Assembly (NCBI GenBank): GCA_026182355.1 | Contig: JAPFBL010000573.1 | Span: forward strand, 152,501-216,500 | Source of the DNA: Hermatobates lingyangjiaoensis | Taxonomy: Eukaryota; Arthropoda; Insecta; Hemiptera; Hermatobatidae | Reading direction: 5' to 3' | Length of the DNA: 64,000 nucleotides | Part shown: positions 485 to 61,380 of the stretch, in pieces | Layout of the letters: every line of letters begins with the position of its first letter | How positions within the stretch are numbered: position 1 is the stretch's first letter | The notes under the pieces: model-generated | The model's input: only the letters and a program-made list of their open reading frames with translations | Told to the model about the DNA's origin: nothing | Database searches by the model: none | Position numbers and translations under genes: made by a program

Positions 485-515
485 CTCAAATTTTCGGGTA
501 TTCCGTCTTCAGGAG
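485..515 (-). ncRNA. Hammerhead ribozyme motif, family F, left arm
   Basis: On the minus strand: stem I CTC/GAG, core CTGAAGA, extra C, stem II GG/CC around a 5-nt loop, GAA, stem III AATT, H17 = T. All core positions are present, but stems are short, so activity would be weak without dimerisation. Confidence 0.6.
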
Positions 516-610
516 AAAAGAGAAAGGGAGACCAAGCTCATTGTAGACGCAACGGCAAGTAACTTGGGTTTACTTGCGTCTACAACGTGCTTGGTCTCCC
601 TTTCTCTTTT

Positions 611-641
611 CTCCTGAAGACGGATTACCCGAAAATTTGAG
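611..641 (+). ncRNA. Hammerhead ribozyme motif, family F, right arm
   Basis: Mirror partner of the motif at 485-515: CTC, CTGAAGA, C, GG-ATTAC-CC, GAA, AATT, T, GAG. One loop change separates the two arms while stems and core are identical. Confidence 0.6.
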
Positions 642-778
642 TCTGTAAGTGTGTTTCCTTACTCTCTGTGTTACTCTTCTTAAATTTTGAACTCGTATTG
701 TGTTCAGTTTGGATCGTGTTTCGTTTAATTAAGTTAATATATATATATATATATATGAAAAACGTGATTGAATATATA

Positions 779-1202
779 CAGGGTGATTGAAAAGTAACTC
801 CCTATTTTAAAAAAACTATAATTTATTTTTAAAATATAATTTCTACAATTAATGAATATGAGAAGGAAGTATAATGCATGGGCTTTTATTTAAAATTCGA
901 TATGGGCGCCTTTATTTGCCACCAGCTTCTCAAGTCGACCAGGAATCGCATCAACTGATTTCGCAAGAAACTCTTGTGGGATGGAAATCATAACTTCTCG
1001 TATTCGCCCTTCAAGTTCTTCCAAATTTCTTGGTTTGGTTGAGTAGACTTACTCTTTCAGCCAACCCCAGAAAAAAAAGTCGCAGGGTGTTAAGTCAAGA
1101 CTTCTTATACTTCCTTCTATAAATTAATTATAGTTTTATAATAATTCTTCTAAAATAAATTAGAGTTTTTTTTAAATAGGGAGTTACTTTTCAATCACCC
1201 TG
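779..1202 (-). mobile_element. Internally deleted mariner-like transposon
   Basis: Terminal inverted repeats of about 30 bp (CAGGGTGATTGAAAAG at the left, its complement at the right) enclose 424 bp. Minus-strand translation gives the C-terminal region of an IS630/Tc1/mariner transposase, with the D-F-F-F-W-G-W motif followed by R-N-L-E-E-L-E. The N-terminal two thirds are missing, so it is non-autonomous. The flanks are TA-rich; the right TA duplication is imperfect. Confidence 0.8.
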
Positions 1203-1276
1203 ATTATATATATTATATATAATACTATATATATATTATATATATTATATTATATATATTATATATATATATATAA
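1203..1276. repeat. AT/TATA microsatellite
   Basis: Imperfect TATATAT/ATTATA tract between the mariner remnant and a PLE relic. Confidence 0.9.
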
Positions 1277-1294
1277 CACTATTTTTCTTTTTTA

Positions 1295-1380
1295 TCGAGG
1301 TTTGGTCTAACTTCAATAGTACAACACCTTTAAGCCAACGTTTCGTCTATATTTGTAGACATCTACAGGGTTACATTAAT
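1295..1380 (-). mobile_element. PLE relic, family M, with near-complete hammerhead
   Basis: The minus strand at 1334-1371 reads CTGTAGA, T, stem II GTCTA/TAGAC (5 bp), GAA, ACGT, T, GGC. The only core change is A6 to T. A second M copy is at 5864-5891. The outer part (TCGAGGTTTGGTC) recurs near 6250. Confidence 0.5.
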
Positions 1381-1403
1381 ACAGAATTTTAATTACTGTA
1401 CAG

Positions 1404-1495
1404 GGTTGGGTTTTGACTCTGATGAAGACCGCTTGTTACGGTTGAAAGATCTTAGTCTTGTTTTCCCATTTCATATTGTGGTTTGATCATTGATA
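1404..1495 (+). mobile_element. PLE-derived unit, family A, single arm
   Basis: Contains the A-family ribozyme at 1415-1457, followed by the family tail ending TTTGATCATTGA. It is the commonest unit in the window and elsewhere usually occurs as an inverted pair. Confidence 0.7.
1415..1457 (+). ncRNA. Hammerhead ribozyme motif, family A
   Basis: Stem I GACT/AGTC, core CTGATGA, extra A, stem II GACCG/CGGTT with a 7-nt loop, GAA, self-complementary AGATCT as stem III, H17 = T. Every core position is present. Confidence 0.7.
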
Positions 1496-1699
1496 TATAT
1501 ACATATGTTTATAAAATTGTATACTTAGGGTCTTTCAAACATATTTCATTAAATTGCTTGCCGTATTTTTTTCATATATTCATTAAATTGCTTCCCGATT
1601 TTTATTTTTTCGTATTTTCATTAAATTGCTTGCCGATTTTTGTGAGCAGGCTTATTCTCTTCCCTGCCAATGGAAGTCCTTAATTTGAAGATTCGAAAA

Positions 1700-1880
1700 G
1701 GTGTCTAGAAACCAGGAAAAAATAAAAATATATCAAATTAAACTCTCAATGCCAACGTTTCGGTTTTTATTTAAAAGCTTTTTCATAGGCAGAAGTATGC
1801 ATTTTGTAACAGAAAAACAAAGTATTACATTACAAATTATTTTGCAAAGAAAAATAGTTTTTCTTTGTAAAATAATCCAC
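1700..1880 (-). mobile_element. PLE relic, family B
   Basis: At 1751-1790 (minus) the hammerhead fold is kept: stem I GCC/GGC, a long AT-rich stem II, GAA, ACGT, T. The 5' core reads TATGAAA instead of CTGANGA, so it should not cleave. The same degenerate core recurs in every B copy. Confidence 0.55.
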
Positions 1881-2159
1881 CACCTTGATTATTGATATAA
1901 CGATTTTCCAGTTATAAATATTGCCTCCATGATTTGCAGTTTCCTGTGTTTGTTTTCTTGGAGTAGTATCACTGTATTTTTGGTAATGATTCCTTTGGTT
2001 AATTTAATTCCATGTACGGTTGAAACGTGTTTTTTTAAGTCCACCTGAAGTTCGGTGCATTTAAGTCTTCGTGAAAGTTATTATTTTATTCCAAAGTTTT
2101 GGTTTGCTTTTATCAATAAGCAGAAAGCAAAGGAATTTATAATATTAAGATAGAATTCC

Positions 2160-2240
2160 AGATAATCTTCGAGGGCCACACAAAAACACGTGTTGGGCCA
2201 CATGTGGCCCGCGGACCGTAGGTTGTCCATGTCTGTCCTA
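2160..2240. mobile_element. hAT-type terminal remnant
   Basis: GGCCACATGTGGCCCGCGG followed by a TTGTCCATGTCTG end resembles the termini of non-autonomous hAT elements, and the hAT at 11067-11518 has a comparable GGCCCGCGGGCC block. No matching opposite end was found. Confidence 0.35.
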
Positions 2241-2540
2241 GATATTTGATTTAGGAGCTAGAAAATCTGGTTTTCACTAATCCTTGAAGAGTCCCTAGCT
2301 TGTTTTCTTCAAAGTTGGCTGCTCTAATATGATTTAGAAGAAACCCTGCACTGCAAACTTTCCTTGCTAAAGTCGGTACCATATAACAAACATACACTCT
2401 TCTTTCTCCCAGTATAGCGTTAATATATAAGCCGGTAGTTGATACAAATATAAACATCTTTAAATACAGTAAGATAAAAACAGCACAAATGACTTGGGTT
2501 TTTTTATTTTTTTGTTATCTCTATACTTTTTTATACTATC

Positions 2541-3434: not shown

Positions 3435-3483
<49 letters not shown>

Positions 3484-3485
3484 AG
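2541..3485. repeat. CT-rich compound satellite
   Basis: Almost pure C and T for about 950 bp. Units of roughly 100-130 bp (CTCCATTTCTCACTCTC, CCCCTACTCTCTCACGCC, CACTCTTCCCCCTC) recur, so a higher-order tandem array is built from the dinucleotide. Its two long open frames are low-complexity artefacts. Confidence 0.9.
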
Positions 3486-4399: not shown

Positions 4400-4554
4400 T
4401 TCTAAAGTTTAATTTTAGAACCTAGAAAATTGAGCGAAAACCGATTACGTAATAGATCCATTTTTTCTCTCCTGATGACCGTTAAACCGAAAATTTTAGA
4501 TTGTAAGTCTGTTTTTCTATTTACTGTGTACCTATAGTTTACTCTCTGAACCGT

Positions 4555-4555: not shown

Positions 4556-4627
<72 letters not shown>

Positions 4628-4821: not shown

Positions 4822-4861
<40 letters not shown>

Positions 4862-6201: not shown

Positions 6202-6392
6202 GGTACTGTTTTCTTGACCACAAAATATTCACAAAACACTTTTTCTTTTTCTCGGAGTTTGGTCAGGGTAAATATATGGAATCACCTTTATAAATAAAGA
6301 CGAAACGTTGGCAAAAAGGTGATTCCATATATTTACCCTGACCAAACTCCGAGAAAAAGAAAAAGTGTTTTGTATATATATATATATATTAT
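5975..6392. mobile_element. Two adjacent foldbacks with (TA)n joints
   Basis: First foldback: arms 5980-6012 and 6106-6140 (TCTAATACCGAACC and complement). Second: arms about 6240-6282 and 6310-6370 (CTCGGAGTTTGGTCAGGG and complement) with a central GACGAAACGTTGGC piece of the M/B ribozyme 3' half. (TA)n lies at 6171-6201 and 6375-6390. Confidence 0.6.
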
Positions 6393-6397
6393 AAATC

Positions 6398-6545
6398 AAT
6401 GATCAAACCACAAAGTCCGGAACAAGCGGACATCGTCAGAGTCAAAAATTTAAGTGATTGATACGGTTGAAAGATCTTAGTCTTGTTTTCCCATTTCATA
6501 TTGTGGTTTGATCATTGATTGTTGTTTCGCGTGTTTATGTGAAGT

Positions 6546-6583
<38 letters not shown>

Positions 6584-6807
6584 GGTTTTGTTGGTTCGGT
6601 ATTAGAAGCGTTTCTATTCCACGGTCGATACTTTTATCAATATATATATATATATAAGTCAATGATCAAACCACAAAGTCCGGAACAAGCGGACATCGTC
6701 AGAGTCAAAAATCTAAGTGATTGTTACGGTTGAAAGATCTTAGTCTTGTTTTCCCATTTCATATTGTGGTTTGATCATTGATTGTTGTTTCGCGTGTTTA
6801 TGTGAAG

Positions 6808-6838
<31 letters not shown>
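6398..6838. mobile_element. Two degenerate family A foldbacks
   Basis: Two nearly identical units (6398-6550 and 6660-6812) share the same deletion across the ribozyme centre, so one was copied from the other or both from a deleted master. They are separated by (TA)n and an AGAAGCGTTTCTATTCC segment also seen at 6130. Confidence 0.65.
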
Positions 6839-13010: not shown

Positions 13011-13304
13011 TTAATATGATAAAACGAAGATCATTTCTCATTGGTTGACACTTCAACAGTCCTTATTTAATCAACAACTTTCTCATTTTTACCGCCTTGA
13101 CTCTTACGTTTATTCTTATAAATTAAAAACGAAAATCAGATATAACTCATCACGAAGGATCCATATTCAAATTTACAATATGTTTATTGTTTGTTTTTTA
13201 ATATCCATGCTTATAAGCTCTCACTTTTCGTGCTGTTCAAGGGGCGGAAAATAGATGAGCCACGTGACTGTGTTGATACGACATAGGGAAATCTAAATGT
13301 TGCC

Positions 13305-14245
13305 TTGCTCAAGTGTATTTAAAATACAAATCTTTAACGAGTACAGGTTTGGGACTGACGGCTTTATGTTCTCCGAGGGACAGTGTATTTAGAATAGAAA
13401 TCTTTAACGAGTACAGGTTTGGGACTGACGGCTTTGTGTTCTCCGAGGGACAGTGTATTTAGAATAGAAATCTTTAACGAGTACAGGTTTTGGGACTGAC
13501 GGCTTTGTGTTCTCCGAGGGACAGTGTATTTAGAATAGAAATCTTTAACGAGTTCAGATTTGGGACTGACGGCTTTGTGTTCTCCGAGGGACAGTGTATT
13601 TAGAATAGAAATCCTTAACGAGTACAGGTTTTGGGACTGATGGCTTTATGTTCTCCGAGGGACAGTGTATTTAGAATAGAAATCTTTAATGAGTACAGGT
13701 TTGAGACTGACGGCTTTGTGTTCTCCGAGGGACAGTGTATTTAGAATAGAAATCTTTAACGAGTACAGGTTTTGGGACTGACGGCTTTATGTTCTCCGAG
13801 GGACAGTGTATTTAGAATAGAAATCTTTAATGAGTACAGGTTTGAGACTGACGGTTTTTCGTTCTCCGAGGGACAGTGTATTTAGAATAGAAATCTTTAA
13901 CGAGTACACGTTTTGGGACTGACGGCTTTGTGTTCTCCGAGGGACAGTGTATTTAGAATAGATATCTTTAACGAGTACAGGTTTGGGACTGACGGCTTTG
14001 CGTTCTCCGCGGGACAGTGTATTTAGAATAGAAATCTTGAACGAGTACAGATTTGGGACTAACGGCTTTGCGTTCTCCGCGGGACAGTGTATTTAGAATA
14101 GAAATCCTTAACGAGTACACGTTTTGGGACTGACGGCTTTGCGTTCTCCGAGGGACAGTGTATTTAGAATAGAAATCTTTAACGAGTACAGGTTTTGGGA
14201 CTGACGGCTTTGCGTTCTCCGAGGGACAATGTTTTAGGATCTTTG
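13305..14245. repeat. 70-71 bp satellite derived from a SINE body
   Basis: About 13 tandem copies of a unit starting CAGTGTATTTAGAATAG and containing GTACAGGTTTGGGACTGACGG. Start points 13381, 13451 and 13522 fix the period. The unit matches the SINE body seen once at 57125-57190 and runs directly into a SINE head at its right edge. Confidence 0.9.
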
Positions 14246-14345
14246 GACTTTCCACGTGAAAAAATCAAGGCTAGAGTGAGAGTCGAACACTGGATTAAGC
14301 TGTCCAGAGGCGAGGACGCAAGTCAATGGACTACAGTGGCGCCGA
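14225..14345 (-). mobile_element. tRNA-derived SINE head adjoining the satellite
   Basis: The minus strand holds the box A-like region and box B-like GTTCGACTCTCAC, followed by the AATAAATCTG-type body now replaced by satellite. This is the source element of the 71-bp array. Confidence 0.65.
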
Positions 14346-15339: not shown

Positions 15340-15890
15340 TTCTGTTTTTCTTAACAAAATTCCAATCCTCAAGCTACTGCCACCAAATACTTAGGACTGC
15401 ACCTTGACAGACGTCATACTTGGGCTCTCCCCATACAAAAATGAAAAGAACAGAACTAAACAGACGCTATGGACTTTTAATTCACTTACTTGATAATCGT
15501 TCAAAATTAACAACTGTCAATAAACTATTACTATACAAATCTATGATTATGCCTATTTGGACTTATTGTATTGAAATATGGGGAGCAACAAAATCTAGCA
15601 ATGCCCAGAGGATACAAGCATTTGAGTCAAAAATTCTTAGAAAAATTCTTCATTTTCTTTTTTATATATCAAATCAAACAATCTATTCAGACTTCAGGAT
15701 TTCAAAAGTTCATCAAATAGCAATATCTCGCTACAAAGCCTTCCATAAAAATCTTTTTAGCAATAATAATCTCATAGTCCTAAACATCTCCTCAACAAAT
15801 ATCCCAGGAAATCCCCAAAGGCGTCTAAAGAGAGAAAGTGGCCAAGAGACTTATTGGTGTGAATTAGTCTAGTGACTTATAAACTTATAA
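15340..15890 (+). pseudogene. Jockey-type LINE, reverse transcriptase 3' remnant
   Basis: Translation gives K-Y-L-G-L-H-L-D-R-R, then after a one-base frame change K-L-L-L-Y-K-S, P-I-W-T-Y and I-Q-A-F-E-S-K-I-L-R, ending P-Q-R-R-L-K-R. This is the C-terminal end of reverse transcriptases of the Jockey clade. Only about 170 codons remain and the frame is broken near 15425, so it is dead. Homologous ends are at 38270-38590 and 45170-45490. Confidence 0.85.
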
Positions 15891-19817: not shown

Positions 19818-20065
19818 TTTTTACTCAGAGGTAAAATGGATAAACCAACAAAAGTCTCCAACAACTAGTAGGAAAAACTTTTCCTACTAGTTGTTTTCAC
19901 TAGACCAACCCGTCATTACCACATCTTTGGTGTCTTCCTGATGATGAACACAAAGTGTTTGAAACGCGTTGAATAAAACTTCATTTGTGTGGAGACTTTT
20001 GTTGGTTTATCCATTTTACCTCAGAATGAGTAAATACCACACAATTACGGATTCCACAACTAATG
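19818..20065. mobile_element. Foldback, family D
   Basis: Left arm TTACTCAGAGGTAAAATGGATAAACC, right arm complement at 19995-20035, outer end TTACGGATTCCACAACTAATG. The left ribozyme half is missing and the right is intact. Confidence 0.7.
19935..19973 (+). ncRNA. Hammerhead ribozyme motif, family D
   Basis: Stem I TTC/GAA, CTGATGA, extra T, stem II GAACAC-AAA-GTGTTT, GAA, ACGCGT, T. The only deviation is a G-T wobble closing stem II. Confidence 0.7.
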
Positions 20066-21805: not shown

Positions 21806-21914
21806 TAATATCTTAAATAATAGTAATCATGAAAAAATTCCATCTCAAGATTTTAACGAAGATCCTTGTTTTGAGGTCGACAAACTCCTTTTTTGATGTT
21901 CTTTCGATGATGTC

Positions 21915-22740
21915 TATGTATGTGTCGTGGGCGCGAATACAAAAGTTTGCTACTGTATCCAGTCCATGAATTTGATGGATGGAATTCATATTTTACCCTT
22001 AGATGAGCCATAGAGATTAAATGTGCTCTAATGTTCAATGACCAGTCCATGAATTTGATGGATCGAATTCAGATTTTACTTATAGATGGGCCATAGAGAT
22101 TAAATGTGCTCTAATGTTCAATGACCAGTCCATGAATTTGATGGATCGAATTCAGATTTTACTTATAGATGGGCCATAGAGATTAAATGTGCTTTAATGT
22201 TCAATGACCAGTCCATGAATTTGATGGATCGAATTCAGATTTTACTTATAGATGGGCCATAGAGATTAAATGTGCTCTATTGTTCAATATGTGTCGTGGG
22301 CGCGAATACAAAAGTTTGCTAGTGCATCCAGTCCATGAATTTGATGGATGGAATTCATATTTTACTTATAGATGAGCCATAGAGATTAAATGTGCTCTAA
22401 TGTTCAATGACCAGTCCATGAATTTGATGGATCGAATTCAGATTTTACTTATAGATGGGCCATAGAGATTAAATGTGCTCTAATGTTCAATGACCAGTCC
22501 ATGAAATTGATGGATCGAATTCAGATTTTTCTTATAGATGGGCCATAGAGATTAAATGTGCTTTAATGTTCAATGACCAGTCCATGAATTTGATGGATCG
22601 AATTCAGATTTTACTTATAGATGGGCCATAGAGATTAAATATGCTCTAATGTTCAATGACCAGTCCATGAATTTGATAGATCGATTTCAGATTTTACTTA
22701 TAGATGAGACACGGAGATTCAAAATGCTCTAATCTTCAGT
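21915..22740. repeat. 83-bp satellite with higher-order structure
   Basis: Nine copies start near 21958, 22042, 22125, 22208, 22329, 22411, 22494, 22577 and 22660 (CCAGTCCATGAATTTGATGG). A 38-40 bp extra block (GTGTCGTGGGCGCGAATAC) precedes copies 1 and 5, giving a longer repeat of about 371 bp. Confidence 0.9.
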
Positions 22741-23236
22741 GATAATATTGCATGATTTAAAGTAATTTTTTTATCAAAAATTTTTTTTTTTGGACATTTG
22801 TTTACTCCTAAAGTAATAAATCTTGGGCCTTGAAATTTTGGCATTGTCATAGAAATGACGGAAGTAATAACTGAAAATATAACCTCAGTTATTTAAACTA
22901 ACTGGATTTTTTTTCTTAATAAAACAGAATTCATACTGTTTGACGGAGCAGAATGAAATTATACCTAAAAGTACCACCTTATATGAAGATGAATTGAAGA
23001 GTTTTTTTAAATTACATTACTAAGAAGTAATGGTACACTTTATGATTTCAGAAAATCGTTTTTTAATTACTAATTGGTTAACAAATGAAATTAAATCAAA
23101 AGATTTAACATAAAATTAGCAATTCATGCACAAAATATCTTTAAATTTCGATTAACAAAAAGCTATTAAACCGAAAATTCATCCTGCAATGATGGACACC
23201 CACTGTACTTGACGGATCTGTTTACATTTTTACTGT

Positions 23237-23470: not shown

Positions 23471-24832
23471 CCTAATCCTCCGCCTAGCTGAGGATTTTTG
23501 GTTGTTTTTCTAGGATAAAAATAGCTTTCAAAATTTGTAATTTGGTATTGTCATGTTCCTTTTGTAATATCACAGTGTAGTCCGTTAACATTTCCCTTGC
23601 TAATTTTATTCCATGTTGAAACATGCTCTTTTGGTCCTCCGAATGCAAGATACGAGGGTCGTCCGGAAAATAAGTTCCGTTTTGGTCTGTAGGGCGTAGG
23701 AGTGGTTTTTGCCAAATCCGGCAAACACGTCGAAAGAGGAGAGGTGGGGGAATAGAATGAGAGGTGGGGGCTCAGTCGGTCAATTACCAACGTCAGGGCA
23801 GGTAGTTGAAATGGAGCCCTCCATTGTCACGTCCGCCACCTCGATCCCCGTTCCCTCTCGAGTTTGTTTCGAACAGCTCATTTCTGTTTATGGAGAAGGT
23901 GTAATGAGTGAATCAATGGTGAGGAGATGGGTACGTGAATTTAAGGCGGGAAGACATTCAGCTCTCTAGGGACCCACCGGGCGGAAACTTTCCGAAAGTC
24001 AAGTTTTTCCGAGACGATCTCATGGATGAGGATCGTGAGATGTCTGGGAAACTCAGGTGGAGTTCATCCAGGTTGAACGAAGATCTTTGCGAATTGCATT
24101 GTCGATTGCTGCGACAATTTCGTCCGTCACAACTGAGGGTCTGCCTCTCCCACTTTCATCCTCAAGTGAATGTCTTCCGCTTAAATTCACGTACATTCCT
24201 CACGATTGATTCACTCATTTACACCTTCTCCATAAACAGAAATGAGCTGTTCGTGAATTTGAACTGATTTGAAACCCTGTGCATAAAGAAATTGAATCAC
24301 TCCGCGCAAAACAACTCGAGAGGGAACGGGGATCGAGGTGGCGGGACGTGACATGGAGGGCTCCATTTCAACTACCTGCCCTGACGTTGGTAATTGACCG
24401 ACTGAGGTCCCCCACCTCTCATTCTATTCCCCCACCTCTCCTCTTTCGAGCGGTGTTGCCGGATTTGGCAAAAACCACTCCTACCGCCCTACAGACCAAA
24501 ACGGAACTTATTTTCCGGACGACCCTCGTACATGGTGATCCTTGTTAAAAACGTTGTTGTGGTAGAACCAACGTATTTGGAGCGTAAGCACTCGCTGTTC
24601 ATTAAGTTGCTACTAAACTCGTATATAACGTTGGTTTACTGGAGGGGTGCTTTCTTTTATGTGTTATTCTTAATTACCATTCTTGATGTGACAAAGTTAG
24701 TAGGTATAGTAAATTTTAAGTTGCAGTCTGTCATTTGGATTAAGGCATATTACATTTCTCTTGATAATCTCTTTTAATATGAGTTCGTCAATTTTATAGG
24801 CTTCAGAAATCAGAATCTCAACTGATATGAAC
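23470..24832 (-). pseudogene. PLE 3' coding remnant interrupted by a mariner
   Basis: From 24832 down to 24531 the minus strand reads Y-K-I-D-E-L-I-L-K-E-I-I, T-N-V-I-Y-E-F and Y-V-G-S-T-T-T-T-F-L-T-R-I-T-M. After the mariner it resumes at 23650 with L-A-F-G-G-P-K-E-H-V and, after a frameshift, N-T-K-L-Q-I-L-K-A-I-F. This is the linker plus GIY-YIG domain (Y-V-G, T-x-R, C-terminal E/K-A-I) aligned to the PLE at 42.2-42.8 kb. Several stops upstream of T-N-V show decay before or after the mariner landed. Confidence 0.75.
23651..24530 (-). mobile_element. Rearranged mariner inside a PLE
   Basis: Inverted ends CGAGGGTCGTCCGGAAAATAAG with TA at 23651-23652 and 24529-24530. The minus strand (about 24400-24050) encodes the mariner transposase N-terminal region: V-Y-G-E-G-V, G-R-G-R-P-S-V-V-T-D-E-I and A-I-R-K-D-L-R. 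The plus strand at 23820-23970 encodes the same helix-turn-helix start (V-Y-G-E-G-V-M-S-E-S, R-R-W-V-R-E-F). Two N-terminal halves in opposite directions make a foldback; the catalytic D,D34D part is missing. Confidence 0.85.
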
Positions 24833-25022: not shown

Positions 25023-25287
25023 ACTGTGTAGGAAGTTTGTTATATAGTTTAGATACAACAACGAAATCCTTATTTTGAAAGCTAGAGAAACTTATAAAGA
25101 AGCAAGTTTCTGCCAACTATGGCTGTGTTTTTATTAACAGGTGCTTAAAAGGAGGACTGCTTTCAAAATTCACAAATATTTATATCAATATTATTGTTAT
25201 ATATATATATATATGTGAACTGATATATATATATATATAATAAAATAAAAAACGAAGGAAACACACAGAAAGACACAGACATAACTC

Positions 25288-25323
25288 ACATCGATATTTC
25301 GACAATCGTCGTCATCAGGAGGT
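25288..25323 (-). ncRNA. Hammerhead ribozyme motif, family G, left arm
   Basis: CTGATGA, extra C, stem II GAC-GATT-GTC, GAA, ATAT, H17 = C. Stem I ACCTC/GATGT has four of five pairs. Confidence 0.6.
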
Positions 25324-25409
25324 GCGAAGAGCGAAGAGCGAAGAGTCCCGCAGGAAGACAGGGCGGTACTGAAGAGTTCCTGCGGGACTCTTCGCTCTTC
25401 GCTCTTCGC

Positions 25410-25445
25410 ACCTCCTGATGACGACGATTGTCGAAATATCGATGT
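25410..25445 (+). ncRNA. Hammerhead ribozyme motif, family G, right arm
   Basis: Identical in core and stems to the partner at 25288-25323. Confidence 0.6.
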
Positions 25446-25545
25446 GAGTTATGTCTGTGTCTTTCTGTGTGTTTCCTTCGTTTTTTATTTTATTGTAAAA
25501 AAGTCCGCTGGACCGTTTCTTTTAATTGGTATATATATATATATA

Positions 25546-26084: not shown

Positions 26085-26280
26085 TATACAGTGGACGCAT
26101 TTACGTCTCCGTTCCTTCATTCTTTCTCCTTTTATTTTCTCTCTTTCTACTCTCCTGAAGACGGCAAGACGCCGAAATTATCGAGATTCGTGAGTGTTCG
26201 TCCTTTTTCTTGTGTTCTCTAGCTGTAACTTTAATTATTTGTCCGTTTGGACCGTCTGATTTCAATTCAAAGTATATATA
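26085..26280 (+). mobile_element. PLE-derived unit, family E
   Basis: GTGGACGCATTTACGTC, T-rich leader, ribozyme, then GTGTTCGTCC and the TTTGTCCGTTTGGACCG tail. 5'-truncated relative of 36158 and 55371. (TA)n at both edges. Confidence 0.75.
26151..26186 (+). ncRNA. Hammerhead ribozyme motif, family E
   Basis: Stem I TCTC/GAGA, CTGAAGA, extra C, stem II GGC-AAGAC-GCC, GAA, ATTAT as stem III, H17 = C. This is the cleanest member, with a canonical ATC cleavage triplet. Confidence 0.75.
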
Positions 26281-27589: not shown

Positions 27590-27790
27590 ATATATAATCA
27601 ATGATCAAACCACAATAACAAAATGGGAAAGCAAGACTAAGATCTTTCAACCGTGACAAGCGGTCTTCGTCAGAGTCAAAAACCCAATTGACGAAGACCG
27701 CTTGTTACGGTTGAAAAATCTTAGTCTTGCTTTCCCATTTTCTTATTGTGGTTTGATCATTGATTGTTATTTCACGTGTTTATGTGAAAT
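27590..27790. mobile_element. PLE foldback, family A
   Basis: Arms 27595-27685 and 27688-27770 are nearly complementary. The left arm ribozyme is complete; the right lacks stem I because the joint falls in it. Confidence 0.75.
27635..27677 (-). ncRNA. Hammerhead ribozyme motif, family A
   Basis: GACT, CTGACGA, A, GACCG/CGGTT, GAA, AGATCT, T, AGTC, complete on the minus strand. Confidence 0.7.
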
Positions 27791-28290: not shown

Positions 28291-28316
28291 TCATAGTGAA
28301 AATAGTTTTGAAAACA

Positions 28317-28354
28317 ATGCTCTAAGGCCTTTCGTCAACACGTCGTCAGAGAGC
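28317..28354 (-). ncRNA. Hammerhead ribozyme motif, family J
   Basis: Stem I TGCTCT/AGAGCA (6 bp), CTGACGA, extra C, stem II GT/AC, GAA, AGGCCT, H17 = T. It lies about 40 bp downstream of the PLE coding end on the same strand. Confidence 0.7.
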
Positions 28355-28394
28355 AAATGAAGTAAGAAATAATAAATACTTGTTAGCCTGGTTG

Positions 28395-30603: not shown

Positions 30604-30770
30604 AATTCAGAACGAAGGAAACACACAGAAAGACACAGACATAACTCACATCGATATTTCGACCATCGTCGTCATCAGGAGGCGTGAAGAGCAAAGAGTC
30701 CAGCAGGAAGACAGGGGGGTGTGTCTTTCTGTGTGTTTCCTTCGTTTTGAATTTTTTTATTTAAAAAATG
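30467..30770. mobile_element. Family A fragment, (TA)n, family G foldback
   Basis: A-family piece at 30467-30540 with the ribozyme centre deleted; (TA)n 30541-30598; then a G foldback with left arm 30605-30690 and a short right arm 30720-30750. Confidence 0.65.
30648..30683 (-). ncRNA. Hammerhead ribozyme motif, family G
   Basis: CTGATGA, C, GAC-GATG-GTC, GAA, ATAT, C; loop differs by one base from the copies at 25.3 kb. Confidence 0.6.
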
Positions 30771-34624: not shown

Positions 34625-34860
34625 TATCAATGATCAAACCACAATAAGAAATGGGAAAACAAGGCTAAAATCTTTCAACCGTAACAAGCAGTCTTCGTCA
34701 GAGTCAAAAACCCTCAGTTGGGTTTTTGACTCTGACGAAGACAGCTTGTTACGGTTGAAAGATCTTAGTCTTGTTTTCCCATTTCTTATTGTGGTTTGAT
34801 CATTGATTGTTATTTCACGTGTTTATGTGAAAGCTTTTTATATTTATATATATATATATA
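34625..34860. mobile_element. PLE foldback, family A
   Basis: Arms 34628-34712 and 34715-34800, tail CACGTGTTTATGTGAAAGC then (TA)n. The left ribozyme is mutated in stem III. Confidence 0.75.
34728..34770 (+). ncRNA. Hammerhead ribozyme motif, family A
   Basis: Complete core and stem I; stem II GACAG/CGGTT has one internal mismatch. Confidence 0.65.
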
Positions 34861-36157: not shown

Positions 36158-36660
36158 GACACCCAGACCACTCTAAGGGCTGCTGAGGAAGCCTTCATTT
36201 GGTTATTGGGTGCAAGAAATTCCCCTGGTCTAAATTTAATCAGATGATTTTTTTATTTTTTATTTTATTTTTAATTAATTTTTTATTTATTTATTTATTT
36301 TTTCCCCTCGTTTAATTTTAGTTAGTTTTATGTTTTTTTCCTTTCCTTTCTCTTTTTTACTTTTCTCCTCCCTTTTACTTAAATATCACTTTTAATATTT
36401 TATTAACTCACAGCCTACACTGGTTCACGTTGGTAAGGTGGCTGCACTGCGTGTCATTGTATCGCGCCAGTTTACATCGGCCAGTGGACGCATTTACGTC
36501 TCCGTTCCTTCATTCTTTCTCCTTTTATTTTCTTTCTTTCTACTCTCCTGAAGACGGCAAGATGCCGAAATTATCGAGATTCGTAAGTGTTCGTCCTTTT
36601 TCTTGTGTTCTTTAGCTGTAACTTTAATTATATATATATATATATATATTATAGGGTCTA
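36158..36660 (+). mobile_element. PLE 3' end with ribozyme, family E
   Basis: The first 30 codons read E-E-A-F-I-W-L-L-G-A-R-N-S-P-G-L-N-L-I-R then TGA at 36245-36247, matching the last helix of a PLE GIY-YIG domain (E-A-x-x-I ... P-x-L-N). About 300 bp of leader follows, then the ribozyme and (TA)n. Almost the same as 55371-55800, but with an expanded T-rich tract. Confidence 0.75.
36544..36579 (+). ncRNA. Hammerhead ribozyme motif, family E
   Basis: TCTC, CTGAAGA, C, GGC-AAGAT-GCC, GAA, ATTAT, C, GAGA. One loop substitution relative to 26151; structure unchanged. Confidence 0.75.
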
Positions 36661-36664
36661 TATA

Positions 36665-36870
36665 TATAATATAAGGTCTCCAACCGTCTCTGAACCAGTG
36701 CGCTTGGTTTCCCTCTCTTATCTCTTCTGAAGACGGTTCAAACCAAAAATTAGAGACTGTAAGTGTGTTCTTTTAATTTCTCTATGTTTCTTTGTCTATA
36801 TTGAACTATATTTGTCCGTTTTGGATCGTATTTCCAACGAAAAAGTGTATATGTATATACTATATATATT
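36665..36870 (+). mobile_element. PLE-derived unit, family H
   Basis: CTGAAGA, C, GGTT/AACC, then AAA instead of GAA, AATT, A, GAGA. Tail TTTGTCCGTTTTGGATCG is shared with E and F. G12 is lost, so cleavage is not expected. Confidence 0.55.
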
Positions 36871-41904: not shown

Positions 41905-42036
41905 TATATTATTAAAAATGTAACCATAGTTGGCAGAAACTTGCTTCTTTATAAGTTTCTCTATCTTCCTAAATAAGGATTTCGTTGTTGTATCTAAACT
42001 ATATAACAAACTTCCTACACAGTTAACAGTCAACAT
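41905..42036 (-). pseudogene. PLE N-terminal coding start in the 3' pseudo-LTR
   Basis: ATG at 42036-42034 opens M-L-T-V-N-C-V-G-S-L-L-Y-S-L-D-T-T-T-K-S and continues to Y-G-Y-I-F-N-N before AT repeats. The ATG sits in the stem III loop of the ribozyme. Family knowledge: PLE pseudo-LTRs can include the beginning of the reading frame. Confidence 0.65.
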
Positions 42037-42069
42037 GTTTCAACTCTTTCATAGAGCCATCTTCAGGAC
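42029..42069 (-). ncRNA. Hammerhead ribozyme motif, family K
   Basis: Stem I GTC/GAC, CTGAAGA, extra T, stem II GGCTCT/AGAGTT (two G-T wobbles), GAA, ACATGT, H17 = T. About 100 bp downstream of the GIY-YIG stop, on the same strand. Confidence 0.75.
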
Positions 42070-42084
42070 GAGAATGATTCTCAA

Positions 42085-42164: not shown

Positions 42165-43215
42165 CTAAGGGGTCGCTGTTATTACCTGGGCCGCGTCTAT
42201 TTGGCCTTGTATTTCAAATAGCTTAAGGCTCCTATGGCTGTTTTCTAATTGAATGTTGATATGGGGTTTCATGTTTTGTATACATACAGCCTGAATAATT
42301 TCAAGTTCTTGTTGATCTCTTTCTCTTTTAATTATTTTAGTGCCTGCCACAATAATGTCCCTTGTCAATTTTGTTTTGTGAACTTGCTCCATGTGTTTCT
42401 TGGGAGTTCCAGACATCAGATGCATTGTGAGCCTCCTTGACAGAGTGGTAGTGGTTACTCCAATGTACGAATGTTTTCAGTTTTCACAGTCACCGTAGGT
42501 ACAAGTATATTCGTACACTAGATTAGTTTCTTTGAGTGGAGTGCTCTTAGTTTGGCTATTGTTTTTCATAAACAGACTGCTGATTGTGGGGCTTTTATAA
42601 TAAGTAATCAGAGAAACTCTGTCGTCTTTGTTCGTACACTTTATATTGCTGTTTATGATATTCTTAAGGACCCAATCAATTTTGTACTGTTCGGAGTATT
42701 GATTTCTATAGTAAATTTTATGAATAGTTCCAGGTGTTTCTTTATTCATTTCTTTGCGTTCCTTGTCATGTAGATATGCCTTGAGAATATTGTCGAATTT
42801 TTTATTAGAGTATATCATTTGTAAACTTTATCATTGTTTACGAAAGCCTGTTTTGTTCCGTTTATGTTACCATGAAAAATCTTCCAGTCTGAAGCTATTT
42901 TATAAGTTCGATGAATCAGAGCTTTTATAGTTGTATCCTTGTAGCGTTCTGGACACTCACTCAATACATTGAGGTATGAAGCTGTATTGGTGGCTTTTAC
43001 GTAAACTGAAGTTTCAGTTTTTTGGTTTTGCATATTGATGTTTACGTCAAGGAAATTGATTTTCTTATTTATTGATTTCTCAATTGTGAATTTTAAACAG
43101 GACTCTTCTTCAAATGCTTTCTTTAAGTTTTCAATGTCGTTCATATTTTTTGATACAATGAAGCAGTCATCCACGTACCTACAATAGACTGTTGGTTTGA
43201 TCTCTGGTCTGTTTA
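42165..43215 (-). pseudogene. PLE reverse transcriptase and GIY-YIG reading frame, broken
   Basis: R-Y-V-D-D-C-F near 43170 is the catalytic Y-x-D-D of reverse transcriptase motif C. F-L-D-V-N and Y-L-N-V-L-S-E-C-P-E-R-Y-K follow, typical of PLEs. Then Y-K-I-D-W-V-L-K, T-N-L-V-Y-E-Y-T-C and the GIY-YIG block S-Y-I-G-V-T-T-T-T-L-S-R-R-L-T-M-H-L, with the C-terminal E-I-I-Q-A. A frame change at 42815-42818 and an in-frame TGA at 42477-42479, just before Y-I-G, break it. N-terminal fingers and palm are missing. The product would prime reverse transcription at nicked DNA; this copy cannot. Confidence 0.9.
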
Positions 43216-43221
43216 ACCACG

Positions 43222-43244
43222 ATCAAGATCAAGTGTGTGTGTGT

Positions 43245-46442: not shown

Positions 46443-46632
46443 CAAACTACAATAAGAAATGGGAAAACAAGACTAAGATCTTTCAACCGTAACAAGCGGT
46501 CTTCGTCAGAGTCAAAAACCCAAAGAGTTGGGTTTTCCCATTTAGTCTTGTTTTCCCGTTTCTTATTGTGGTTTGATCATTGATTGTTATTTCACGTGTT
46601 TATGTGAAATCTTTTTTTTTTTATATATATAT
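46438..46632. mobile_element. PLE foldback, family A
   Basis: Left arm complete (46438-46520), right arm 46535-46612 with a deletion. Right tail CACGTGTTTATGTGAAATC then TA. Confidence 0.7.
46471..46513 (-). ncRNA. Hammerhead ribozyme motif, family A
   Basis: GACT, CTGACGA, A, GACCG/CGGTT, GAA, AGATCT, T, AGTC; complete. Confidence 0.7.
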
Positions 46633-47074: not shown

Positions 47075-47325
47075 TATATAAAGATTTCACATAAACAAGT
47101 GAAATAACAATCAATGATCAAACCAAAATAAGAAAATGGGAAAGCAAGACTAAGATCTTTCAACCGTAACAAGCGGTCTTCGTCAGAGTCAAAAACCCAA
47201 CTGCCAAAAAACCAACCAGTTGGGTTTTTGACTCTGACGAAGACCGCTTGTTCTTAGATCTTAGTCTTGCTTTCCCATTTTCTTATTGTGGTTTGATCAT
47301 TGATATATATATACATATAGTTATA
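47075..47325. mobile_element. PLE foldback, family A
   Basis: Arms 47085-47205 and 47217-47310. The right ribozyme has a deletion after CTTGTT. Confidence 0.75.
47148..47190 (-). ncRNA. Hammerhead ribozyme motif, family A
   Basis: Complete, same as 46471-46513. Confidence 0.7.
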
Positions 47326-48999: not shown

Positions 49000-49222
49000 A
49001 AATATCTAAAAAATTGAAAGAAAAGAACACGTAAAAACAATATACAACTCACTTCAATATTTTGGCCTAATCGTCGTCATGAGAAGGAGAAGAAGAAAAA
49101 AATGAATTCTGATTGGCTGGCAAACAGGAACTGAACAGAACTCATCTTCTTCTTTTTCTTCTCCTGATGACGATGAGGTCGAAATAATGAAGTGAGTTGT
49201 GGATTTTTTCTTCGTTTTCATT

Positions 49223-49750: not shown

Positions 49751-49965
49751 AAACCACAATATGAAATGCGAAAAAAGACTAAGATCTTTCAACCATAAGA
49801 GGCTGTCTTCGTCAAAGACAAAACCTGACTGACTCTGACGAAGACCGCTTGTTACGGTTGAAAGATCTTAGTCTTGTTTTCCCGTTTCATATTGTCGTTT
49901 GATCATTGATTGTTATTTCACGTGTTTATGTTAAATCTTGTTATATATATATATATAATATCTAA
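49745..49965. mobile_element. PLE foldback, family A
   Basis: Left arm 49746-49828 (degraded), right arm 49829-49938 intact, TA on both sides. Confidence 0.75.
49831..49873 (+). ncRNA. Hammerhead ribozyme motif, family A
   Basis: Complete: GACT, CTGACGA, A, GACCG/CGGTT, GAA, AGATCT, T, AGTC. Confidence 0.7.
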
Positions 49966-50186
49966 CCACAATATGAAATGGGAAAAAAAGACTAAGATCT
50001 TTCAACCGTAACAAGGAGCTTTCGTCAGAGTCAAACCCCAACTGAGGTTTTGACTTCGTCAGATTCAGTTGAGTTTTGACTCTGACAAAGACAGCTTGTT
50101 TCGCTTGAAGAACTTCGTCTTTTTTTCCCAATTTATATTGGAGTTTGATCATTGATTGTTATTTTACGTGTATATGTGAAATCTTG

Positions 50187-50240: not shown

Positions 50241-50318
50241 TTTTGACTCTGACGAAGAACGCTTATTCCGTTTGAAAGATCTCGGTCTCGTTTTTCCATT
50301 TCATATTGTGGTTTGATC

Positions 50319-51399: not shown

Positions 51400-51720
51400 T
51401 CATTAGTTTTGCGATCCGTAATTGTGTGGTATTTACTCATTCTGAGGTAAAATGGATAAACAAACAAAAGCCTCCACACAAATGAAGTTGTATTCAACAA
51501 TAACAACGCTGAAGGGTTGGTCCAGTTGTTTTCACTGGACCAAACCTTCAGCACCACATCCTTGGTGTCTTCCTGATGATGAACACAAAGTGTTCGAAAC
51601 GCGTTGAATAAAACTTCAATAGTGTGGAAACTTTTGTTTGTTTATCCATTTTACCTCAATTTGAGTAAATCACGCATTAAGGTTTACCACGCAATTACCG
51701 ATTGCACAACTAATGATTTA
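51400..51720. mobile_element. Foldback, family D
   Basis: Left arm GCGATCCGTAATTGTGTGG to GGTTGGTCC, right arm from 51535. Outer ends are present on both sides (GATTGCACAACTAATG at right), so this is the most complete D unit. Confidence 0.8.
51570..51608 (+). ncRNA. Hammerhead ribozyme motif, family D
   Basis: TTC, CTGATGA, T, GAACAC-AAA-GTGTTC, GAA, ACGCGT, T, GAA; every position and pair intact. Confidence 0.75.
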
Positions 51721-52440: not shown

Positions 52441-52538
52441 TATACGTATATATATATATATATAGAAATAAAAAGATTTCACATAAACACGTGAAACAAC
52501 AATCAATGATCAAACCACAATAAGAAATGGGAAAACAG

Positions 52539-52581
52539 GACTAAGATCTTTCAACCGTAACAAGCGGTCTTCGTCAGAGTA
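52539..52581 (-). ncRNA. Hammerhead ribozyme motif, family A
   Basis: Core complete; stem I TACT/AGTC has lost its outer pair. Confidence 0.6.
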
Positions 52582-52623
52582 AAAAACCCAACTCTGACGA
52601 AAACCCAATAACGTTGGGTTTTT

Positions 52624-52666
52624 GACTCTGACGAAGACCACTTGTTACGGTTGAAAGATCTTAGTC
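52624..52666 (+). ncRNA. Hammerhead ribozyme motif, family A
   Basis: Core and stem I complete; stem II GACC/GGTT with one mismatch next to the loop. Confidence 0.65.
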
Positions 52667-53714
52667 TTGTTTTCCCATTTCTTATTGTGGTTTAATCATT
52701 GATATATAGAAATATAGTAATATAATCATATGATTTTAAAATCAAAGATGACATTTATTAACAAAAATATGTTGGGGTATTTTAAGGTATGTTTTTGCTA
52801 ACGAGTTATCTCAATCGATGTTAAAACTTGCTTTATTTAATTTTTTTTTAATTTTTTTTTCTTACTCGTTATTTATTCAAAACAATTTACTATTAGGTTT
52901 TCAAATGATTTTAACTTGAATAACGTTGTATTGTATGACTCATTCCAGAAATAACTTGCATATTCTTAGTTCTATTTTCCACTTAGTGAAGAAAAAGTTT
53001 GCGAAAAGTAATTAGAACTAGTTGATTACAGACCAGAAAGGTAAAGCAAACGTTAAACTGTCTGTGTACTGAAAAATTAATTTCAGCAGGAATTTACCCT
53101 TTGCCAAATTACTATCTGGAAAAAAAAACAAATTGGGATTTAATAAAAGACCATCGTTTTTTTTTTTGACCAGAAAAATAAAATTAGTGGTTTCTGTACA
53201 ATAGAAGAAGGTTCAACTCATATAATATTTTTTTCCAAAAACTGTAATTATTTTCTCTCCCCCGTTGTTTGCTGACAAGCCATTTGTGACAGTTGGCTAA
53301 TTGTATAGAATTTTTGCAAGTGTGATACCAAAAGTGGAGTTGGTCAAATTATTTTGTCATTCAATGATGACAAACAAAATGTTTTACCGAAAAAAAAAAC
53401 AGCAATTAGATTTGATCAGTAATTGTGTTTAATTAAAAAAACAGTTTAATTTACAAAGCTGAACTGTTACTAATAGTTACCGAATGACAATAAACTATAA
53501 TTTTTTTTAACCTGCTTTTTTTTTTCTTTTTTTTTTTTAATAAATAAACTTGTACTGGCAGAACACTGTGAATGTTTTAATTCAAGCTGTTTTTAATTAA
53601 AGCCCAGGAAAGTTTTAGTTTTCCACTCTATCCCACCTTTAGAATATCTTATTTTTCAACTCATTTCATTTGAAACTCACTTAAAACTTGGTTAACTCAT
53701 TAAATTGCAATCTG

Positions 53715-55370: not shown

Positions 55371-55830
55371 AAATGATGACACCCAGACCACTCTAAGGGC
55401 TTCTGAGGAAGCCTTCATTTGGTTATTGGGTGCAAGAAATTCCCCTGGTCTAAATTTAATCAGATGATTTTTTCCCCTCGTTTAATTTTAGTTAGTTTTA
55501 TGTTTTTTTACTTTTCTCCTCCCTTTTACTTAAATATCACTTTTATAATTTACTTACTCACAGCCTACACTGGTACACGTTGGTAAGGTGGCTGCACTGC
55601 GTGTCATTGTATCGCGCCAGTTTACATCGGCCAGTGGACGCATTTACGTCTCCGTTCCTTCATTCTTTCTCCTTTTATTTTCTTTCTTTCTACTCTCCTG
55701 AAGACGGCAAGACGCCGAAATTATCGAGATTCGTGAGTGTTCGTCCTTTTTTTTGTGTTCTCTAGCTGTAACTTTAATTATATATATATATATATATATA
55801 ATATATATATAATAATATATATATATATAA
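55371..55830 (+). mobile_element. PLE 3' end with ribozyme, family E
   Basis: Starts at the same GATGACACCCAGACC position as 36158 and carries the same E-E-A-F-I-W coding end, leader, ribozyme and tail, closing in (TA)n at 55780-55830. Confidence 0.75.
55694..55729 (+). ncRNA. Hammerhead ribozyme motif, family E
   Basis: Identical in core and stems to 26151-26186; H17 = C. Confidence 0.75.
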
Positions 55831-57845: not shown

Positions 57846-58579
57846 ATTATATCTAATCAGTTACAAAATTAGAGTGAAATAATAAAATTCAATTAACAGA
57901 ATTCAAGACATACCCAAGGATTTTTTTTTATATTTTCAAACAGTTTTTGATCTTTAAAGGTACTTAAAAAAGGCGATGATGGAACCAAAAAGAAGGTATT
58001 TTTCTGTTCTCTGTAAACTCGTCTGTTTTCATCGTTTCAACTTTAAACTAACATGCTGTAACAAACAGCATGAATTTTTCTTTTCACTTTGTAGAAATTA
58101 CCCTTAAAGAGACAAAAGATGACATGTTTCCAAGTCTCCAATAATTTTTTTATTCCAAAAAAAATATTAATCACAGAGTACTTTTTTTTTCCTTTATTAA
58201 CTTTAATAATAGTACCAATTTATTTCTTTTTTTCAAATTCCACTTTTCTTAAGAAATAAGTGACGCATTAAAAATTATCAAAAAAATAATTGATAACATG
58301 TTTCTCCTTATTAGTCCGAATTAAGAAAAGTTTGGGGTTCGTTTGCTTGATGGTTGAAGAAGACGAATAAGAAAGGGGGGGGGGGACAGAGGGTGAATAA
58401 TAGGTCCATAGAGAAGGGGTTGATTACTGTTAAGAAAAGGAAGTGACTAAAGGGATATGCAATTATGTAATTACTTGTACAAAGGGTTTTTTAAATAGTA
58501 GCCTAGGTAGAGAAGGAAAGACATCTGGTTTGGGTCACGTGACTGAGGTGGCAGTTTGAAGCGAGGAGTAGAGGGCCCT

Positions 58580-59725
58580 TTCAGGAGCATGCGCCCTTAA
58601 CCCAAACAAAAATGCTGAAAAAAAAATCAAAAATGATTTCGATAATAAATCATTGATAAGATAGTTTTAATCAAATTATAATGTTTATTTTATAATAATC
58701 TTCAAATGTAGTTTGTTTTAGATGATGGTAACACTGAATATATGCATAATAATTATGACCAGCACAACCTATACTGACTATGGACTACCTTACGACTCTT
58801 AGGAGTTGGGTCATCCCTCTCCGATGAGGGAATTCCCGTTACCCCGGGATGAGGGTTGCAATGGCAGTTAATTTGGCCAATCAGGGTCTCATTATGGGGC
58901 GTCTTGGTACATTGTGAGACTGAAAATGGAGAGATTAAAAATCTCTCGTTAGCTAAAAGCCACCTGGAAGATACAAGTCCAGACAGAGTAGATCCAAAGG
59001 TCTCTCTTTATGAATATAAGGGCATGAGATAGGGTTGCATCCATTCTTCCCCACTCTGAGTAGCCCATCAAAAGCCAAAGCGTCTATTAAAGCCACTACC
59101 AGTATTCCACCTCACTTAGCTGAGATCGTGGTCCGTTCGTATTGGTCAAGGTTTGGGGCTCTAGCTCCCCGGTATGCTAAGCAGTCAGCCGACCGAGAAG
59201 TTACTGCTTCTCACACAGCGACCAAAAGGGTCTATCCAACTTGGGTGAGAACCAACAGCCACTACTAGTCCAACCTCAGTTGGCGGGATGAAGAGAGAAC
59301 CACTCCATGGGTCCCCGCCACCCGTAGTACCGACTTATTTTGAGAGTCGGTTCTACTGAACCTGCTCAACTGCAGGAAGGAGCAGTGGCCCATGTATAGC
59401 CACCGGTTCGAAGAACCACGTGGAAATAAAGCCAATGCAACCTACAGTATAGCTGCATGGCCTCACTAAGGGCGGGTGGATGAGTATATGCATGATCAAT
59501 GATCAATGATTAAGTTTGATGACTCTTGTATACTTGCTGTTCCTGTACTGCACCAGTTAGTCTTGTATGGGGCATGCGCCCTTAAGGCACAGCTAAATGC
59601 AGAATAAATTAAAATGATTTTAATGTAATAAGCAGATCTTATAATACCTTAAAATGTAGTTTGTTTTAAATGGTGGCAACACTGAGTATATCGGTGATCA
59701 ATGATCAATGATGCAGTTTTGACGA
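58580..59725. other. GC-richer block flanked by direct repeats
   Basis: About 58770-59510 is near 50 % GC and non-repetitive in this window (CCGTTACCCCGGGATGAGGG, CTCCCCGGTATGCTAAGCAG). GCATGCGCCCTTAA and TGTAGTTTGTTTTA...ATGGTAACACTGA flank it at 58587-58740 and 59573-59685, and TGATCAATGATCAATGAT occurs at 59491 and 59695. The layout suggests an inserted element with a short-repeat 3' tail such as a non-LTR retrotransposon fragment, or a segmental duplication. No reading frame with a known motif was found. Confidence 0.4.
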
Positions 59726-59859
59726 TATAGGGTACTCCTGTTTACATACTACCTATATGATGGTAACAATGCACTGGACTAATTATAAGAATAGCAACAA
59801 ATAAAACAATGATGATTAGAATAATAACTAACAGTAGTGTTAATAATGATAATGATAGT

Positions 59860-59940
59860 AAACTTTTTCGATGAGAATACGATCTGAAACGGACAAACAA
59901 AGTTAAATGTAGATGAAGAAACATATTGAAACAGCATCAG
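59860..59940 (-). mobile_element. PLE tail fragment, family H
   Basis: Minus strand TTTCTTCATCTACATTTAACTTTG and TTGTCCGTTTCAGATCG match the H tail at 36785-36835. Confidence 0.5.
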
Positions 59941-60799
59941 TTAGTCTTGTGAATAGCAGGATAGTCAATCATGGAAATGATAGTATTCGAGGACTATGGC
60001 AGCACACAAGTGCTAGTCATTGTGTCATATGATATCAGCCCGCCCGCAAACCCAAAACAATCAATTAATACCGTTTATTGATTATCACAAATTAAAAAAA
60101 TGTTTCACTTTAAACATAAATTGACTCGTTTTTATCAGAAACGTTTTTAACATACAAATCATTAAATAAGCCCAGAATAGCTAATACAGTTTTTTATGTG
60201 AAATTATCAACAAATTAAAAATAAAGGATTTCCAACTATTCATTGCGGACTACAATGAGATCAAATGCCTCATCCAAAACTTTTCACTTTATACATCTGA
60301 TAATTGAAAACAAATTACAATATAGCACCAGAATACTAGCTAAAACATAGATTAATAGTAATAGTATCTATACAATAATAAATATAAGTAACAGGGTTAC
60401 TAGCCATTGCGCACGACTTAGTCTCACATCTCTTTATCTGAGATGAATAGCACGAAACTTTGAGGATTCTAATTATACCTTACTCCAACAGTTCATTTTT
60501 CATTTTCATGCTAATAATATGAAAACAATATATACCATAGTTATAATACAATTAATACTACAAATATGTAGATAAAAAATCATAGTGTTATCTATTACAA
60601 TAACATATACATATAAGTAACAGGTATACTAGCCATATAGGTGCGTATAAATTAGTACAATTATAAATACGATATACTCTTATATTCATAGAATAGAGGA
60701 TGTAAAATCCCAAACTTTAGTTATCTGAATGAATATTACTATATACTTAAGTATATCATTATCTATCATATTATAATCTACATAAATAAATAATAATAA

Positions 60800-60905
60800 C
60801 AAGACTAAGATTTCATTGGGATTTTGACTCGGACGAGGACCGCTTGTTATGTTAAAAAGATCTTAGTCTTTTTTCTCATTTCTAATTGTGGTTTAACATA
60901 TATCA
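60800..60905 (+). mobile_element. Family A relic
   Basis: CGGACGAGGACCGCTTG, GTTAAAAAGATCTTAGTC; core and GAA damaged. Confidence 0.6.
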
Positions 60906-61029
60906 TATAATATTATAGTTATATCATGATATGGTAGGTATATGTAAAATACAATTATAAATAGATATATATATATATTATATAAATATAGTAATATATA
61001 CAGTTATAATATATCGGTTCTATAAATAG

Positions 61030-61212
61030 GTTCTCAATAAATTCTAATTGTTGTTTCTTTAAATAATGTAAATTTCATTTTCTTAGTTAAAAAATTCTTA
61101 CTTCTGCCTATGAAAAAGGTTTTAAATAAAACCGAAACGTTGGCAACGAGAGTTTGATTTTTTATCCTGGAAAATTGACCGAACCCCGATTAGAGAACAC
61201 ACCTATATATAA
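61030..61212 (+). mobile_element. PLE-derived unit, family B
   Basis: Near-identical to 41695-41880, including TATGAAAAAGG ... GAAACGTTGGCAACGAG and CTGGAAAATTGACCG; ends GATTAGAGAACACACC then AT. Confidence 0.7.
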
Positions 61213-61380
61213 TTAAAGTTACAGTTAGAGAACACAAGAAAAAGGACTAACACTCACGAATCTCGATAATTTCGGCGTCTTGGCGTCTTCAGGAGAGAAG
61301 AAAGAAAGAAAATAAAAGGAGAAAGAATGAAGGAACGGAGACGTAAATGCGTCCACATATATATATATATATATATATAT
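61212..61380 (-). mobile_element. PLE-derived unit, family E, inverted
   Basis: Complement of the E unit from tail (TAATTAAAGTTACAG) to GGACGCATTTACG; (TA)n at the right. It abuts the B unit tail to tail. Confidence 0.7.
61261..61296 (-). ncRNA. Hammerhead motif, family E, stem II broken
   Basis: TCTC, CTGAAGA, C, GCC-AAGAC-GCC (no pairing), GAA, ATTAT, C, GAGA. Core intact but stem II cannot form. Confidence 0.5.

Follow-up and report, generated by a model that had tools for sequence, protein, structure and literature searches.

A stretch of 64,000 nucleotides (nt) from the genome of Hermatobates lingyangjiaoensis (assembly GCA_026182355.1, contig JAPFBL010000573.1, positions 152,501-216,500 of the forward strand), referred to below as the window, contains 22 hammerhead-like motifs of seven families, every one with a single extra base between A9 of the core and stem II. 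We consider it likely that these are type I hammerhead ribozymes, as predicted here, and that most of them lie in short copies representing the pseudo-long terminal repeats (pLTRs) of several families of Penelope-like elements (PLEs). Minimal type I hammerheads of PLEs were reportedly described by Cervera and de la Pena in 2014 and by Lunse et al. in 2017; many of them may also carry an extra base. As in those ribozymes, stem III is weak or missing in our motifs, action as a dimer would be expected, and the sites appear to be pLTRs, with one family (J) adjoining a PLE gene.

The sequence CTGANGA occurs 70 times in the window, against an expectation of 21. The motif as we defined it runs in the order stem I, CTGANGA, one extra base, stem II, GAA, a self-complementary A..T box, a non-G base and stem I again. 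A strict descriptor, with stems I and II each of at least 3 base pairs (bp), returned 17 matches with one extra base, one with none and none with two, and nothing in any of 60 first-order Markov control windows. The sole strict match without an extra base is locus 50249+ (position in the window and strand), where stem II is longer when one is allowed. Relaxing the descriptor to a stem II of at least 2 bp, with a shorter loop limit, gave 22 matches with one extra base; in 100 Markov control windows the mean number of matches was 0.01, 0.00 and 0.01 for none, one and two extra bases, respectively. This limit excludes the strict match at 52594+, where another CTGANGA uses the same 3' half as 52628+. 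Taken as a set, the defining features of the hammerhead core (CUGANGA, GAA, the A15.1-U16.1 pair, H17, and stems I and II) are thus present in 22 window matches and in none of the 100 controls.

By family, the relaxed matches number 10 for K, three each for D and E, two each for B and F, and one each for H and J. Each family has its own box (AGATCT in K, ATAT in D, ATTAT in E, AATT in B, ACGCGT in F, AGGCCT in H and ACATGT in J) and one extra base, which is A in K, C in B, D, E and H, and T in F and J across all 22 matches. The textbook form, with no base between A9 and position 10.1, is found in none of them. The relaxed scan also passed ten matches with no extra base, all in K, and two with two, every one at a locus of the 22; at all 11 loci where a second register passes, stem II is longer in the one-insertion register, which we therefore regard as the better one. 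Position 10.1 is G in 21 of 22 matches (A in the K copy 50028-) with C or T as its partner, and in this register stem II closes with a G-C or G-T pair in every family, and with A-T in that K copy.

These results agree with an earlier sequence-only reading of this DNA, which had proposed more than 20 hammerhead-like motifs, a hammerhead-like core shared by several unrelated families, one extra base in every family, and an insertion as the better interpretation of that base. It listed families A, D, E, F, G, J and K. Our letters are our own and may differ from the earlier ones, but the family bounded by CTGAAGAACTGAC..GATAAACTTTAGTT is probably its family A. There, GAT replaces GAA (CAT in one copy) and no stem II lies beside the core in the eight copies aligned, and we rejected it as a good hammerhead on these two grounds. 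Family G (17360+, 17290-, 18481- and 9786+), with an extra A, has a stem I of only 2 bp in its folded representative and is not among the 22. The earlier argument that the extra base cannot pair with G12 in family A would fall if A is this family without GAA; K and G, with their extra A, make the same point.

Within a family, the two strands of stem I and of stem II fit each other. Counting the seven families and G, eight representatives form 44 of the 48 proximal pairs in these stems. Re-pairing the strands between families over 20,000 rounds gave 31.5 pairs on average and never more than 43, and no round was as good as the observed arrangement, so that compensatory change in both stems is apparent from this between-family comparison. 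Within family K, of which 26 copies were aligned, copy 50249+ has one stem II pair altered on both sides. Damaged relatives outnumber intact motifs. In predicted two-RNA duplexes, all six box bases of F and of H pair with the other strand.

A splice-donor-like GTRAGT lies a few bases past the predicted cleavage site in families B, D, E and L (at 645-650, 25444-25449, 26190-26195, 36583-36588, 36759-36764, 49192-49197 and 55733-55738, among other positions). This sequence is not enriched over the window as a whole (63 observed, 59 expected).

Comparison of the window with itself reveals small repeats, many of them inverted, in which the motifs face outward. As a TA run we scored any stretch of 10 or more bases that alternate between T and A and lie no more than 200 nt downstream, with its distance measured from the C of CTGANGA. 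Such a run is present at 30 of the 49 copies examined, compared with 18% of random positions. In families B, D, E and K, the 26 copies with a TA run fall largely into two end classes, 14 at 68-83 nt and nine at 105-128 nt (23 of 26), with three elsewhere (38, 135 and 143 nt). The longer class adds a 'tail' that holds a small hairpin. In all 11 head-to-head pairs tested (nine of K, one of D and one of B) exactly one arm bears the tail, whose motif shows 0-2 mismatches in the tailed arm and 6-11 at the best match in the other; in two of the nine K pairs (6439/6444 and 6702/6707) the tail-less arm is damaged. The 11 pairs do not include inverted copies of F, G, H or L, or what may be a further K pair at 52166-/52246+. 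Elsewhere, the tail is absent from eight other K copies tested and from two D copies, and present in one of four E copies; among four other B copies it is found in 5660- (1 mismatch) and, more loosely, in 36727+ (4 mismatches), and is absent from two.

Two side observations concern K copies. At 47234+, a tail-less arm is followed by TA repeats and then by an inverted piece of tail. The palindrome of one K pair gives an Rfam match to MIR474 (52549-52654), the only family to exceed its gathering score in the window, which is probably a false positive.

This anatomy resembles that of PLEs, for which parts of the published description include inverted head-to-head pLTRs, palindromes at their junctions and an optional tail on one of them, ascribed to self-priming (PMC3846280). 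The K, D and B pairs of the window show head-to-head arms with a tail on one of them, and copies of B, D, E and K fall into two end classes, as two start sites would leave. For Poseidon of Anolis (PAc), sections of PMC11167929 report that reverse transcription begins 111-118 bp into the open reading frame (ORF), with AT-rich cuts on both strands, and that two neighbouring start sites lie inside the template, the tail being the stretch between them; PAc insertions end at two downstream sites in AT-rich targets, as do the copies here. Our proposal is that PLE reverse transcriptases probably inserted most of these copies, as pLTRs, at AT-rich target sites that often consist of (TA)n, with copying begun internally on the RNA at a point downstream of the ribozyme. 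Because each box is self-complementary and short, two RNAs would join through their boxes, forming stem III and permitting cleavage as a dimer after H17. Of the two arms of a head-to-head pair, one would derive from a start at the distal site and the other from a start at the proximal site. This last step is drawn from our sequence alone, since the sections of PMC11167929 cited here saw no difference between strands. Self-cleavage, dimerisation and movement by PLE enzymes are likewise what we infer for these copies.

For the head-to-head pairs only, the inverted arms may instead have arisen by self-priming of a single complementary DNA or antisense template, without two separate starts. We regard this as a real, if less probable, possibility: it is the reading given for palindromes at inverted PLE junctions in the parts of PMC3846280 cited above, yet by itself it does not predict that one arm is always tail-less, as seen in 11 of 11 pairs, and divergence between the two arms of a K pair can reach 30%. 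Another candidate is the animal retrozyme, a small, non-autonomous element that bears type I hammerheads and propagates by means of circular RNAs. The small size of the units, the type I order, the weak stem III and the low G+C all fit the description in parts of PMC7229834. Retrozymes are described as tandem repeats, however, and the copies here are single or head to head with no direct tandem units, apart from one direct duplication (6368-6838) whose motifs are damaged; such an origin is improbable.

The most direct connection to a PLE is provided by family J, in which the motif follows a broken reverse transcriptase gene of the same strand, on its 3' side, at a distance of approximately 90-100 nt. 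The reverse transcriptase piece of this gene (43222-42168) matches 11 of 15 candidate proteins, at E values up to 1e-3. Within the J box, an ATG begins an 89-codon frame, which would represent the amino terminus of the PLE protein. In PAc, the hammerhead likewise lies at the junction of pLTR and ORF with the start codon inside it, and the cut site is downstream of that start codon, comparable to the ATG in the J box (sections of PMC11167929). Families B, D, E, F, H and K differ from PAc, as described there, in being linked to no coding frame. Beyond J, the link to PLEs, which the sequence-only reading had also drawn, is putative and relies on pLTR-like anatomy, which gives good grounds for it in B, D, E and K and none in F and H.

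An alternative view of the extra base is that it is no insertion at all and pairs instead with the catalytic G12, leaving the motifs dead or plain hairpins. A C9.1-G12 pair does appear in the predicted monomer folds of D, E and H, though not B (three of the four families with an extra C). The extra A of K is unable to form a standard pair with G12, and most of the K, D and E copies aligned retain GAA, the box and stem I (GAA being present in the 22 matches by definition), and we find this view as improbable as a retrozyme origin. A related and speculative idea, unlikely but a little less so, is that the extra base acts as a latch: in B, D, E and H its C would pair with G12, extending stem II and locking the lone RNA until a second copy or the PLE protein frees it, with the switch differing by family (open with A or T, locked with C). 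Ribozymes of this C class may be either slow or dependent on a partner RNA or protein; the hammerhead of the anole PLE cleaved only with its protein, although cleavage was dispensable for insertion in vitro (PMC11167929).

Known hammerheads show that a base at this place is not peculiar to the window. The (+) hammerhead of Chrysanthemum chlorotic mottle viroid has one extra base, an A, between A9 and G10.1; according to parts of PMC3705267, C or G there is very harmful and U improves cleavage, whereas C is the rule here in B, D, E and H. Small insertions after A9 are also noted for known hammerhead alignments in parts of PMC10085705. To follow the extra base across the PLE lineage, five protein-based scans for PLE DNA elsewhere (three of viral contigs, two of GTDB genomes) were made; they returned pattern stretches only, none confirmed by tblastn among the matches listed. 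We further examined 317 loci from IMG/VR viral contigs, fetched by pattern in three scans; all viral counts are among the matches listed, and the share of the one-base form is not a prevalence because two of the three fetch patterns required the insertion. These loci hold at least 285 distinct predicted three-helix hammerheads of type I, of which, in the best register, 101 (a lower bound) have one extra base, 184 none and 0 two; before the choice of register the counts were 103, 186 and 15. Among hammerheads outside all fetch patterns, 13 of 87 carry the extra base. Shuffled versions of 150 viral loci gave no hammerheads. The viral set differs from ours in having a stem III hairpin of at least 4 bp, and came to light only with a descriptor for that hairpin; the palindromic-box descriptor, applied to the loci of the first pattern scan, found none with one extra base, one with none and one with two. 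Their extra base is T in 96 of the 101 cases, A in three, G in two and C in none, compared with C in four of the seven families here. At three loci (L003, L270 and L275), three to five hammerhead-pattern matches lie on one viral contig.

The sequence-only reading had taken a fixed insertion across families to mark a lineage-specific core variant. One extra base in 22 of 22 matches from seven families favours this view. The 101 of 285 predicted viral cases, from a set enriched for the insertion by pattern, the 13 of 87 outside the patterns, the viroid ribozyme and the insertions in known alignments all speak against it, and we now hold it to be rather improbable. Because many predicted viral hammerheads carry an extra base too, the base after A9 is likely to be ordinary, recurrent natural variation and not a new type of ribozyme; and since the same variation occurs naturally elsewhere, we did not count the missing textbook form as an exclusion. 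It is very improbable that the elements are relics of DNA transposons (miniature inverted-repeat transposable elements or foldback elements) with ends that resemble hammerheads by chance, for while inverted-repeat elements are numerous and often flanked by TA runs, the stems match within families as the core persists, no one-insertion match occurs in the controls, and one arm is tail-less in each of the 11 tested pairs, which consequently lack symmetric terminal inverted repeats.

Several observations weigh against the interpretation of these motifs as PLE-borne hammerheads. Rfam models find no hammerhead in the window, either at the gathering score or up to an E value of 10; stem II is just 2 bp long in B and H; none of nine representatives has the drawn dimer as its best predicted fold, and at most three box bases pair across strands in seven of the nine predicted duplexes. 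Only 30 of 49 copies have a downstream TA run, and none of the seven copies of F and G does. When the arms of K pairs were re-paired, 451 of 5040 arrangements were as good as the real pairs, and a common RNA origin of the two arms is not demonstrated. PLE coding sequence adjoins family J alone of the seven, no intact PLE was found in the 64 kb window, and Pfam matches of the gene pieces fall below curated cut-offs, the GIY-YIG-like piece matching GIY-YIG with an E value of 0.0072 and being outscored there by PIH1 at 0.0012. In the anole PLE (PMC11167929), start sites are alike on both strands, mutation of the hammerhead did not abolish insertion, and no read had either end at the cleavage site.

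Table 1. Hammerhead-like motifs of the relaxed scan and the broken PLE gene, in window coordinates.
Feature	Position	Strand	Remark
Motif, family B (extra C, box AATT)	480..520	-	tail-less arm of head-to-head pair
Motif, family B (extra C, box AATT)	606..646	+	tail-bearing arm; tail motif GTTCAGTTTGGATCGT at 702-717
Motif, family K (extra A, box AGATCT)	1411..1461	+	descriptor match
Motif, family F (extra T, box ACGCGT)	19930..19978	+	descriptor match
Motif, family D (extra C, box ATAT)	25285..25326	-	tail-less arm of head-to-head pair
Motif, family D (extra C, box ATAT)	25407..25448	+	tail-bearing arm
Motif, family E (extra C, box ATTAT)	26147..26190	+	tail present, GTCCGTTTGGAC at 26241-26252
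Motif, family K	27631..27681	-	tail-less arm of pair
Motif, family H (extra C, box AGGCCT)	28316..28357	-	descriptor match
Motif, family D (extra C)	30645..30686	-	descriptor match
Motif, family K	34724..34774	+	tail-bearing arm; pair partner 34701-
Motif, family E (extra C)	36540..36583	+	descriptor match
Motif, family J (extra T, box ACATGT)	42024..42074	-	just 3' of PLE gene remnant
Broken PLE gene: reverse transcriptase piece (RYVDDCF), GIY-YIG-like piece (YIGVTTTTLSRRLTMH)	42168..43222	-	Pfam, protein comparison
Motif, family K	46467..46517	-	descriptor match
Motif, family K	47144..47194	-	tail-bearing arm
Motif, family K	49827..49877	+	tail-bearing arm
Motif, family K	49986..50036	-	tail-less arm
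Motif, family K	50241..50291	+	C-G to A-T change, both sides of stem II
Motif, family F (extra T)	51565..51613	+	descriptor match
Motif, family K	52535..52585	-	tail-bearing arm
Motif, family K	52620..52670	+	tail-less arm
Motif, family E (extra C)	55690..55733	+	descriptor match

Other features of the window include a frame at 23700-23969 that gives a Mos1-type helix-turn-helix match, in a region that has a relative close by in inverted orientation (23651-23960 and 24167-24530), and tandem repeats of approximately 71 bp at 13207-14268 and approximately 83 bp at 21836-22836. A frame at 15408-15872, with one relative at 51% identity and no Pfam match of note, presumably resembles the end of the reverse transcriptase of a long interspersed nuclear element. 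This frame, the Mos1-type match and the low G+C would by themselves point to arthropod DNA.

The mechanism of PLE insertion is still poorly understood, and the rule that exactly one arm of a head-to-head copy bears a tail provides a simple constraint on models of it. Furthermore, seven predicted hammerhead families within 64 kb, most of them likely to be of Penelope type, with A, C or T after A9, would form a compact natural series in which the contribution of that base can be studied.

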